Shown piece after piece: positions 2,475 through 8,485 of a stretch of 64,000 nucleotides of DNA (position 1 is the stretch's first letter; each line of letters starts with the position of its first letter). A model generated the notes under the pieces. That model did not search any database, was not told the DNA's origin, and saw only the letters and a program-made list of their open reading frames with translations. Both the position numbers and the translations under genes were made by a program. The stretch comes from an uncultured Dyadobacter sp. (GTDB lineage Bacteria > Bacteroidota > Bacteroidia > Cytophagales > Spirosomataceae). The stretch lies in assembly GCF_946482605.1 (NCBI RefSeq), contig NZ_CAMLSE010000019.1, positions 102,588 through 166,587 on the forward strand, in the 5' to 3' direction.

Positions 2475-3695
2475 ATGCAAAACACGATAGCCCCGCCCCC
2501 GGCTTTTACCGACCGGATGGCGACTCTGCAAGGGAATCCGGGCATACCCGTTTATATTTTCGCCACAGTGTTTGCCTCCTTTTGCGTTATCACAGGGCTG
2601 ATCTGGGATATTTGTTGGCACATGAGTATCGGCCGCGACGGACTGCTGTCGCCACCGCACCTGGTCATTTACCTGGGAGCAGTAGTCGCCGGTTTATTCT
2701 CAGGTTATGAAATTCTTCGGAAAACGTTCTGGGGCAGTTCTTTTGAAAAGGCGGGCAGCGTCCGGATCTGGGGCTTTTTTTATAGCTCCCTGGGTTCGCT
2801 GTTCTGCGTGTGGGGCGCATTGTCCATGCTTACATCCGCTCCGTTTGATGATTGGTGGCACAATACCTACGGCCTTGACGTCACCATCCTGTCGCCTCCG
2901 CACACAGTACTCATCCTGGGCATCATCGGCATTCAGTTCGGAGCTATGATCAGCGTTATCGCTATTAAGAATCAGCTCAAAATCGCCGCAAATCTGGTCC
3001 ATGCACGGAGTCAGAGATCCGCTACCACATTATTCTGGCTCTTTGCATTATCGGCCGGATTTTTGCTTACCATCTGGTACACATTGATTTCCGAGGAACT
3101 GGGACGGATGCAGTCCCATCGTTCGAGCTTTTATATATTTGCAGGTGCGGCGTTGCCCCTGTTGCTCATGTCGGTGGGCAAAGCGGTTTCTCACAAATGG
3201 GCGATTACCGCCGTGACCGGCGTGTACACTTTGCTGATGCTCGCCACGCTATGGATCATCCCGCTTTTCCCGGCCGAACCCAAGCTTGGCCCGATCCTCC
3301 ACCACATTGATCACTACCAGGGATTTCATTTCCCGCTGCTGCTCATTATACCCGCCATGGTTATCGATATCGTAAGGCACCGGTTCACCTATCTCAACGA
3401 CTGGAAACTGACGGTATTACTCGGCTGCACATTCCTGATTGTATTCTTTCTGGTCCAGTGGTACTTTGGTGCTTTCCTGATGGAATCACCATACGCGAGA
3501 AACTGGTTTTTCGGAAGTCACTATTGGTATTTTGGGAATGATCCGAACTGGCAATACCGCTACAAATTCGGCCCGTGGATGATGGAAGAAACTCCGGAGT
3601 TGATCAAAGGTCTGGGCATAGCGCTGTTATTAACGTTGATTTCCACAAGGATCGGACTGGCGTGGGGCAACTGGATGCATAAAATTCAACGATGA
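2475..3695 (+). CDS. PmoC/PmoA-like membrane protein (divergent copper membrane monooxygenase, CuMMO)
   Basis: 406 residues with about ten membrane spans. Seen directly: two copies of a D-x2-W-H-x4-[RL]-D-x5/6-P-P-H motif. The first has Asp45, His49 and His62 (steps +4 and +13). The second has Asp125, His129 and His143 (steps +4 and +14). From memory of the family, PmoC of Methylococcus binds Cu_C through D156, H160, H173 (+4, +13) and Cu_D through N227, H231, H245 (+4, +14), and AmoC has the same W-H, R-D and P-x-H pattern. The later half, about residues 278-332 (HY, proline-rich span, Asp298, NDW 308-310, T313, G317, W329, FG 331-332), resembles the PmoA core. I infer a PmoC-PmoA fusion. 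The stop overlaps the next gene's start (ATGA), so the two are translationally coupled. Substrate unknown; a non-catalytic copper protein remains possible. Confidence 0.65.
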   Translation: MQNTIAPPPAFTDRMATLQGNPGIPVYIFATVFASFCVITGLIWDICWHMSIGRDGLLSPPHLVIYLGAVVAGLFSGYEILRKTFWGSSFEKAGSVRIWGFFYSSLGSLFCVWGALSMLTSAPFDDWWHNTYGLDVTILSPPHTVLILGIIGIQFGAMISVIAIKNQLKIAANLVHARSQRSATTLFWLFALSAGFLLTIWYTLISEELGRMQSHRSSFYIFAGAALPLLLMSVGKAVSHKWAITAVTGVYTLLMLATLWIIPLFPAEPKLGPILHHIDHYQGFHFPLLLIIPAMVIDIVRHRFTYLNDWKLTVLLGCTFLIVFFLVQWYFGAFLMESPYARNWFFGSHYWYFGNDPNWQYRYKFGPWMMEETPELIKGLGIALLLTLISTRIGLAWGNWMHKIQR

Positions 3696-5347
3696 AAAAG
3701 AACCTCATAATATTGCTGCTGCTGTTTCAAAGCATCGCCTCCTACGCGCACGTGGGCAGTGCCGGCGTGCAAATGCAGGCCCAGGCAGGTCCTTATAAAG
3801 TACTGGTTAGCATTGTGCCGCCCGATGTCATACCCGGGACGGCGCAGATTACTGTTTTTGTGGAAAACGGAGAGGCACAAAGGGTTAGCGTCCGGCCGGT
3901 CTACTTCTATTCAGGCGGCAAAGGCGCCCCTTCCTCGGACGAGCTTACCGTCATAGCAGGGCAAAAAAGCCAGTTTCAAGGTTCGGTATGGCTTATGGAA
4001 TGGGGCTCGTCCAGCGCCCAGATTCGCATCGAGGGAAGTCAGGGTACGGGCGAACTGATCGTGCCCATTGTTGCGGTATCTACCGCCCAAAGGGAAATGC
4101 CAGCCAAATTGGGTGTCGGCCTGGGTGTCCTTGGGTTGCTGTTATTTCTGCTGATGATTACGACCATCGGGGCAAGTGTGAGCGACGGCTTACTGAAACC
4201 CGGTGAACAATTGAGCGCAGCGCAGAAGCGCAAACGTTGGCTGAACATGGGAATTGCTACCGTCGTGTGCTCGCTGATCCTCTATGGAGGCAGCAGCTGG
4301 TGGGACAGCTGGGCAGCGGACTACAAACAATGGCTTTATAAGCCGCTCAAAGCCAATGCAACAGTTGCACAGGCCGGCCCTCAGCGTACATTCAGGCTGC
4401 AAATCGATACAACCGGCTGGAACAGGCGATTCAGGGGCAGCATGCTGAGTATGCTCGTGCCTGATCACGGCAAGCTGATGCACACCTTCCTGGTACGTAC
4501 ACCCGGCCTCGATGCGTTCGCACATATTCACCCCGACCGCAAAGACAGCCTTACATTTGAAGCATTGCTCCCCAACCTGCCCGCCGGTAAATACCTGGTG
4601 TATTCGGACATCGTGCAATACTCGGGTTTTGCCGAAACCATTGTCGACACCTTGGATCTGCCCGGCGCCATAGCTAATGCCCCTTCTCCCGCGAGCCCGC
4701 CTGTTGAAGACACTTACATTGTTACAGATCCGCTGGATATGCCCGGTAAGGTGCCAATGGGTGATAATGTTGTGATCTGCGGCAAACCAGGCACCAAGAC
4801 GGTCTTCAAGGACGGCTCCTATGCAATTTGGGAAGGTAAACCGGATAAGCCATTGGAAGCGGGAAAACCCTACCAGCTCAACTTTGAAATCTACAACCCG
4901 GATAACAGTCCTTGTTTTCCGGAACCCTACCTGGGAATGCTGGGTCATGCCGTGGTGGTACGTTCCGACGGATCCGTTTACATTCACCTCCATCCCACGG
5001 GGTCTTATTCGGTAGCGGCCGAAAAGTCATTCCAAAACCGGATAGCCGATACTGCCCGGGTAGCCCCGCGGCCCAAACCTGAGGCATTCCGGGACAGCGT
5101 CGATAAGCACATTGCGAAACTTAACGCGATGCCGATGGTAGATCGCGAGCTATTTCTAATGACTGAAATGGGCATGTACAATGCAAGCGGCGGCGGCATG
5201 ACGGATATGGAACACGGAACGCGTATTTCATTCCCATATTCATTTCCGAAAGAGGGGCAATACCGTGTTTTTCTTCAGATCAAAAGAAATGAAAAAGTCC
5301 TGACAGGCGCCTTTGATATTAAGGTCACCGATCCGGCCGCACTGTAA
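3692..5347 (+). CDS. PmoB-like secreted/membrane cupredoxin protein, partner of the PmoC/A-like gene
   Basis: 551 residues. A signal peptide ends at Ala19, which leaves His20 as the predicted first residue, the arrangement used for copper in PmoB and CopC. A beta-rich domain (about 20-135), two spans (about 139-160 and 185-201) and a long beta-rich outer region follow. This is the order seen in PmoB: cupredoxin, two helices, cupredoxin. The HxH pair that completes the Cu_B site of PmoB is not visible in the first domain, so that site looks degenerate. The outer region instead has two similar His clusters: H259, H264, H278, H280 (HIHP) and H419, H432, H434 (HLHP). It is coupled to the preceding gene by an ATGA overlap and ends six bases from the convergent HAD gene. 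The PmoB relation is inferred from architecture and context. Confidence 0.6.
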   Translation: MKKNLIILLLLFQSIASYAHVGSAGVQMQAQAGPYKVLVSIVPPDVIPGTAQITVFVENGEAQRVSVRPVYFYSGGKGAPSSDELTVIAGQKSQFQGSVWLMEWGSSSAQIRIEGSQGTGELIVPIVAVSTAQREMPAKLGVGLGVLGLLLFLLMITTIGASVSDGLLKPGEQLSAAQKRKRWLNMGIATVVCSLILYGGSSWWDSWAADYKQWLYKPLKANATVAQAGPQRTFRLQIDTTGWNRRFRGSMLSMLVPDHGKLMHTFLVRTPGLDAFAHIHPDRKDSLTFEALLPNLPAGKYLVYSDIVQYSGFAETIVDTLDLPGAIANAPSPASPPVEDTYIVTDPLDMPGKVPMGDNVVICGKPGTKTVFKDGSYAIWEGKPDKPLEAGKPYQLNFEIYNPDNSPCFPEPYLGMLGHAVVVRSDGSVYIHLHPTGSYSVAAEKSFQNRIADTARVAPRPKPEAFRDSVDKHIAKLNAMPMVDRELFLMTEMGMYNASGGGMTDMEHGTRISFPYSFPKEGQYRVFLQIKRNEKVLTGAFDIKVTDPAAL

Positions 5348-7936: not shown

Positions 7937-8485
7937 ATGAACGATCGCGATAGGATCAGTAACCTTGAAGAAATGGCAGCAGAAGTATTCATCAAACTGG
8001 ATAAAGTCGAGAACGACCTCAAAAGCGTGAAGACGGGACTAGGCCAACTTGGAGGCCGGACGGGCTCGATGGAAGATATATTGCTTGGGCTCGCTCACAG
8101 GCAGACCATCGTGGATGATAGTAACGCTATTCTCAAACAAAGCTTGTTGGAGCTGACACAGGTCTCCAAGAAAAATTCCCGGGAAATCGAATCCACAGCA
8201 AGGAACACGCTTAACAAGGATGATCTCGCCAAGCTGTTTGAATACATGATGCTGCGATTCGATGCCATCGAGGAGCGCTTTAAAAGAATTGAGGAGCGAA
8301 TTGACCGGATGGAGGAACGTATCGACCGAATCGAGGAACGGCTGGATAGAATCGAAGCGCGGATCGATCGGATCGAGGAACGGCTTGACAGAATCGAAGC
8401 GCGGCTCGATCGGGTCGAGGAACGGCTTGATCGTGTCGAGATTGACGTAAAAGAGGTCCGGCAAGAGCTCAATGCGCGAAAATAA
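7937..8485 (+). CDS. Coiled-coil protein with tandem heptad repeats
   Basis: 182 residues of unknown function. It is predicted to be helical throughout. From about residue 110 to the end it is an almost perfect series of seven-residue units of the type RIEERLD (I/L/V at a and d positions, R/E salt pairs elsewhere), about eight in a row, encoded by near-identical 21-base units. There is no signal peptide or membrane span. Similar 'DRIEERLDR' proteins serve as structural or scaffolding coils, but nothing here points to a partner. The number of repeats probably varies between strains. It precedes ispF by 45 bases on the same strand. Confidence 0.75.
   Translation: MNDRDRISNLEEMAAEVFIKLDKVENDLKSVKTGLGQLGGRTGSMEDILLGLAHRQTIVDDSNAILKQSLLELTQVSKKNSREIESTARNTLNKDDLAKLFEYMMLRFDAIEERFKRIEERIDRMEERIDRIEERLDRIEARIDRIEERLDRIEARLDRVEERLDRVEIDVKEVRQELNARK
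8270..8447 (+). repeat. Coding 21-base tandem repeats in the coiled-coil gene
   Basis: About eight imperfect copies of a 21-base unit (with a 42-base higher-order period) encode the heptads ending the coiled-coil protein. The copies are similar enough for slippage or recombination. Confidence 0.8.

Follow-up and report, generated by a model that had tools for sequence, protein, structure and literature searches.

Does Bacteroidota, a phylum not known for methane or ammonia oxidation, carry a divergent member of the copper membrane monooxygenase (CuMMO) superfamily? The question is raised by two overlapping genes, here called gene 1 and gene 2, at positions 2475 to 5347 of a 64,000-nucleotide stretch of DNA (the window) from an uncultured Dyadobacter sp. 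(contig NZ_CAMLSE010000019.1, positions 102,588 to 166,587). The initial annotation, made from the sequence alone, took them for a rearranged relative of the methane and ammonia monooxygenases. Our analysis supports kinship of gene 1 with the PmoC/AmoC subunit and suggests that a PmoA-like half is fused to it, while the PmoB identity of gene 2 is the weaker part of the case. With a probability of about 0.5, we read the pair as a rearranged CuMMO relative that is likely to bind copper at two PmoC-type sites and to activate oxygen against a small substrate.

A text search for "Bacteroid" has no hit in PMC9038741, PMC6215863 and PMC12533140, the last a 2025 study that adds further CuMMO phyla, in agreement with the annotation's remark that the phylum is not known for methane or ammonia oxidation. 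The titles and abstract openings listed by searches of an open-access library, a scope that leaves out preprints and subscription papers, disclosed no fused or Bacteroidota CuMMO.

Gene 1 and gene 2 form one unit

The following features define the pair.

2475..3695, + strand: gene 1, an intact open reading frame (ORF) for a 406-residue membrane protein with a PmoC-like core and a PmoA-like half
3692..5347, + strand: gene 2, an intact ORF for a 551-residue secreted or anchored partner with predicted PmoB-like topology
3692..3695, + strand: ATGA overlap joining the two genes, read from the sequence

Both ORFs and their ATGA overlap bear out the translational coupling first noted for them, and the arrangement recurs among relatives. 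One scan, of contigs from one genome per species, gave 379 gene-1 relatives; the best 80, all from Bacteroidota wherever their titles name a taxon, supplied 80 loci whose proteins were clustered. Gene 1 was found in 78 loci, gene 2 in 77 and the next cluster, an upstream NlpC/P60-type lipoprotein, in 42. Of the 78 loci in which gene 1 was clustered, 75 have gene 2 directly 3' of it, on the same strand and within 200 bases; the genes overlap in 40 of these 75, by exactly 4 bases in 26. The three exceptions are two contig ends (L049 and L055) and one locus (L047) whose 17 kb contain no gene 2 by clustering. The two genes diverge in step (r 0.95, 75 pairs), and much of that correlation would be expected from the shared descent of their hosts alone. 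Gene 1 and gene 2 are one unit, a two-gene system as annotated, and the clustering of the 80 loci revealed no conserved partner gene beyond gene 2.

The family is large: with gene 1 as query, 5,792 of 7,997 scored database clusters pass E<=1e-3, and 7,336 clusters match a distant member used as query. Dyadobacter supplies the nearest named relatives among the best 120 matches listed, in line with a Dyadobacter-like host within the Cytophagales, and the family is present in 5/395 sampled genomes of the phylum and 50/291 of the order. Second copies of gene 1, tandem or near-tandem, 63-74% identical and with all ligands kept, occur in L049, L079 and L083, the order in L079 being gene 1, gene 2, gene 1'. 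One further relative (G454:C10:234290-235497) is split into two overlapping frames, probably by a frameshift.

Gene 1 keeps the two metal-site motifs of PmoC

In PmoC, the CuC site consists of D156, H160 and H173 and the CuD site of N227, H231 and H245; the two sites are about 6 Å apart and are never both filled in the structures described (PMC12576850). Gene 1 has a counterpart of each.

2607..2660, + strand: CuC-like motif D45-x3-H49-x12-H62 (D..WH....RD....P.H), ligands kept in 115/115 rows, same register as PmoC D156/H160/H173
2847..2903, + strand: CuD-like motif D125-x3-H129-x13-H143, invariant in 115/115 rows, PmoC counterpart N227/H231/H245

Conservation among homologues, one of the points on which the annotation had staked its reading, is complete for the six ligands. 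Across the 115 rows of the gene-1 alignment (A4), D45, W48, H49, R54, D55, H62, D125, D126, W127, H129, P141 and H143 are identical, and P60 is kept in 91; the six ligands are also invariant in an earlier set of 89 rows that includes a few duplicate loci. Every row thereby has the CuC triad of the CuMMOs and the CuD histidine pair at x13 spacing. Both D-x3-H...H sites are present as first described, but the frame around the first is W-H-x4-R-D-x4-P-x-H rather than x5, which is also the frame in PmoC/AmoC (PF04896). The separation of the sites, Asp to Asp, is 80 residues in 115/115 rows versus 71 from Asp to Asn in 43 of 52 PmoC/AmoC rows, much as the annotation had it.

Chance agreement was assessed with the 1184 ORFs of the 80 loci. 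The pattern D..WH....RD....P.H occurs in 70 of the 80 gene-1-cluster ORFs and in no other ORF. Either loose spacing alone appears in 6 and 10 other ORFs, respectively, and the two together, 50-120 residues apart, in all 80 gene-1-cluster ORFs and in no others. PmoC and AmoC chains read D..WHQ...RD..FTPSH and NEWGH...APLH, archaeal-type AmoC from viral contigs reads D..LHQ...RD..FTPAH and NEMWH, and a joint alignment matches the N-terminal half of gene 1 to both groups, in register across both sites. Gene 1 also shares with archaeal-type AmoC (187 residues in the copy read) a short N-terminal part; it differs from PmoC/AmoC in having no helices before the first site helix, in its fused second half and in scoring below the Pfam cut-off.

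Profiles and plasmid relatives connect gene 1 to PmoC/AmoC

Comparison by hhalign of the 115-row family with 52 PmoC/AmoC rows gave a single local match that spans both motifs (P 0.0017 one way and 0.0014 the other), and P was 0.0012 against 44 rows that include archaeal-type sequences; the reported probability was only 16-19%. Our own profile alignment of the N-terminal half with bacterial PmoC/AmoC scored 27.1, as high as in none of 300 column shuffles and none of 300 block shuffles, and stops just past the first motif. With archaeal-type rows added, the score rose to 33.1 (z 8.6, 0/300) and the alignment extends to the second motif. For whole gene 1, 0/300 column shuffles and 1/300 block shuffles were as high; the C-terminal half, a control, scored 15.6 against PmoC, which 117/300 shuffles reached. 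A screen of 266 families from the 80 loci, gene 1 among them (median length 150-900; no profile larger than 25 members; one numerical warning), ranked gene 1 first at 31.1, with a runner-up at 18.3.

Direct searches returned less. Gene 1 did not match the Pfam AmoC model even at E<=10 (curated AmoC cut-off 26.7 bits), AmoC is absent among the 25 families shown for the 115 members, and searches of Pfam, NCBIfam and PDB sequences that used just the window proteins yielded nothing above cut-off. The gene-1 profile matched no PDB sequence. Viral scans with gene 1, with PmoA and with the plasmid protein described next turned up no relative, and phage records yielded no match. The names carried by some gene-1 relatives at source, low affinity Fe/Cu permease and XapX-like, found no support and were rejected.

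Intermediates came from plasmids. A tblastn search with gene 1 reached two actinobacterial records, in both cases by way of the PmoC-like half (E 6e-6 and 1e-8), and the Mycolicibacterium aubagnense protein as query led on to M. chubuense NBB4, Leifsonia, Streptomyces and Rubrobacter, seven records in total, of which all but the second Streptomyces (FR1) record were read as loci. The five relatives whose whole sequence was read each consist of one chain of 475-496 residues with both sites, 70-71 residues from first Asp to first Asp, followed by a second half, the sequence A-x-A|HDPGQG, another domain and a hydrophobic stretch at the end; cleavage at A-x-A|HDPGQG is predicted to free an N-terminal His, again as in gene 2 (see below). 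For the M. aubagnense protein, AmoC is the sole Pfam match at E<=1 (E 0.044), and each of the six PDB matches at E<=10, with E 0.22-1.8, is to an AmoC or PmoC chain. AmoC is also the top Pfam match of the Leifsonia relative (E 0.094), whereas the M. chubuense relative has no AmoC match in Pfam and the top matches of the Streptomyces relatives are FixH/YtkA in one and an acyltransferase in the other. The AmoC scores, 13.6 and 12.5 bits, stay below the cut-off. We nevertheless count these proteins as evidence because the AmoC/PmoC family emerges from them by independent routes. Motif, profile and intermediate sequences all support, at the level of sequence, the proposed relationship of gene 1 to PmoC/AmoC.

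Among the plasmid loci, the Rubrobacter marinus relative (L243:7895-9022) is split over two frames, and the annotated gene begins after the motif part. Recurrent neighbors in L242 and L245-L248 are a pyridoxal phosphate-dependent cysteine synthase with a major facilitator superfamily transporter, DUF5134, DUF6153, DUF305 and M56/BlaI pairs.

A PmoA-like half appears to be fused into gene 1

2535..2990, + strand: N-terminal half, residues 21-172, four predicted helices, PmoC/AmoC core (hhalign, own profile test, joint alignment)
2991..3692, + strand: C-terminal half, residues 173-406, predicted PmoA-like fold

The AlphaFold2 (AF2) model of gene 1 (pLDDT 90.5, pTM 0.89; loop 131-140 before H143 poorly predicted) gives its second half a PmoA-like fold, with 9-14% sequence identity in the structural alignments. 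The comparison reports one chain per entry, and for gene 1 this is always subunit A. The third CuMMO subunit, which the annotation had missed, thus appears in the model as the second half of gene 1 rather than as a separate gene like PmoA/AmoA. In place of separate xmoC, xmoA and xmoB genes there are two genes, with parts ordered C-A-B. Foldseek found no match for gene 1 at E<=0.001 among PDB entries and viral models; two AmoC/PmoC chains stood at E ~2 with TM scores of 0.10-0.15.

Gene 2 is predicted to resemble PmoB in topology

3692..3748, + strand: predicted signal peptide, residues 1-19; helix 2-14 in the model; A, G or S at -1 in 48/48 rows
3749..3751, + strand: His20, predicted mature N-terminus, 48/48 rows
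3761..4075, + strand: beta domain 1, residues 24-128 (model)
4103..4333, + strand: two predicted membrane helices, residues 138-165 and 176-214 (model)
4466..4531, + strand: His cluster H259, H264, H278, H280 in beta domain 2, each 48/48
4937..4993, + strand: Met/His cluster M416, H419, H432, H434 in beta domain 3

The AF2 model (pLDDT 81.7, below 50 for residues 16-23 around His20) reproduces the annotated order of signal helix, beta domain, two spans and beta domain, and adds a third beta domain. Removal of the signal peptide would expose the invariant His20, as anticipated. Gene 2 and PmoB/AmoB have in common this annotated order, the predicted mature N-terminal His and the last place in the operon; the third beta domain and the new His clusters set gene 2 apart. 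Domains 2 and 3 (residues 255-283 and 410-437) have in common the pattern M/K-x-x-H ... [FY]xHxHP, as though by duplication of a single metal-binding domain.

Copper oxygenase or copper handling

The favored reading makes gene 1 a fusion of a PmoC core with a PmoA-like half, partnered in the periplasm by the PmoB-like gene 2. The His clusters of the latter may receive copper, which would be bound at D45/H49/H62 and D125/H129/H143; electrons would come from the quinone pool, and the chemistry would be that of an oxygenase on a small substrate. Our preference for a monooxygenase-type copper enzyme comes from the PmoC/PmoA-like scaffold and from the fact that neither metal site, nor its frame, is ever lost on it.

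Several observations weigh against this reading. The CuD Asn of PmoC/AmoC is Asp in 115/115 rows; the D-site is likewise not observed in some archaeal CuMMOs (PMC9038741). The CuB-brace HxH is missing from the first beta domain of gene 2, where no position in residues 20-135 other than His20 has His in >30% of rows, so that the other two CuB ligands are absent; CuB is reportedly not kept in all pMMOs (PMC12576850). Against three AmoB/PmoB rows, hhalign gave gene 2 a P of 0.36, and no PmoB row is among the 50 entries listed in its fold comparisons: Foldseek returned 58 rows at E<=0.001, the best 50 being mostly complement and other multi-domain beta-sandwich proteins plus two CrdA entries. The gene-2 profile (A3) drew seven PDB rows at chance level. 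The identification of gene 2 as PmoB therefore stands on topology and the N-terminal His, and of the CuMMO relative first proposed it is the two-gene system and the gene-1 kinship that hold better.

The plasmid neighborhoods also tell against the favored reading and make copper handling a real alternative, since most plasmid relatives sit among copper genes. The pair would then be a machine for import, efflux, storage or copper loading of enzymes on a CuMMO scaffold, its sites and His clusters passing copper along; we consider this less probable than an oxygenase. Copper-type genes lie near 5/6 plasmid loci read: two have P-type metal ATPases, two multicopper oxidases and three CopY-type regulators, and some have heavy-metal-associated, YHS, cupredoxin, DUF305 and four-helix copper proteins and cytochrome biogenesis genes. 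In 16 kb of the sixth (Rubrobacter), however, no copper gene is annotated. Beta domain 1 resembles Helicobacter pylori CrdA (Z 9.5 over 102 residues) and, about equally, a CBM56 domain (Z 9.6); beta domain 3 resembles FetP/P19, among other beta sandwiches; and 5/48 gene-2 rows have a weak YtkA match in Pfam (best E 9e-4). CrdA, FetP/P19 and YtkA/FixH-like copper proteins thus have a fold in common with single beta domains of gene 2, although we know of no PmoC/PmoA-like partner for any of them. No oxidation pathway is conserved near the 80 Bacteroidota loci; none of these, however, has an ORF with the sequence pattern of a CPC-type P-type ATPase or a multicopper oxidase, and the 25 commonest of 125 families in 139/161 neighbors include none associated with copper. 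Invariance of both sites and of the W and R-D frame in 115 rows seems, moreover, to exceed what a relay would need.

Convergence, in which an unrelated polytopic protein gained two D-x3-H...H sites by internal duplication and a PmoA-looking bundle by chance, would fit the weak hhalign probabilities, the lack of Foldseek significance for gene 1 and the resemblance of the two motifs to each other; set against the shuffle tests and intermediates above, we judge it unlikely. An ordinary methane or ammonia monooxygenase in an overlooked phylum would have the same ligand motifs but is highly improbable, with the sequence far outside AmoC/PmoC, the family in 50/291 genomes of the order, no conserved partner genes and, to our knowledge, no methane or ammonia oxidizer among the named hosts.

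Surroundings of the gene pair

The NlpC/P60-type lipoprotein gene lies just upstream of the pair, at 1761-2375 of the window; 12 of the 42 loci with this neighbor are outside Dyadobacter. NlpC/P60 (RipB) genes also occur near the mycobacterial plasmid relatives, perhaps by coincidence. An ORF at 7937-8485 has a strongly repetitive, coiled-coil-like tail (RIEERLDRIEAR repeats).

Place in the CuMMO superfamily

By the features compared, we place the gene pair in the wider CuMMO superfamily and outside the canonical family. The divergent CuMMOs of Candidatus Angelarchaeales, with 8-17% mean identity to bacterial subunits, resemble it in their very low identity to known subunits, the retained CuC triad and a truncated AmoC, but have separate A, B and C subunits and keep all CuB His (PMC9038741). 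We give even odds to a broader proposal, that a further great CuMMO branch exists in ordinary heterotrophs, below the reach of every profile: in Bacteroidota a single chain would combine PmoC and PmoA and have a PmoB-like partner, and on actinobacterial copper plasmids a single chain would unite all three. Such a branch would oxidize an overlooked substrate or keep an ancestral copper-handling role.

CuMMOs are few in number, and their purification and expression are difficult. It is still debated which of their copper sites is the catalytic one (PMC12576850). A distant relative that has the two PmoC sites but fewer parts, and many cultured heterotrophs among its hosts, would offer a natural cut-down system for testing ligands, and an outgroup for the origin of methane and ammonia oxidation. 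If copper handling proved to be its role, the pair would suggest that CuMMOs grew out of copper homeostasis.
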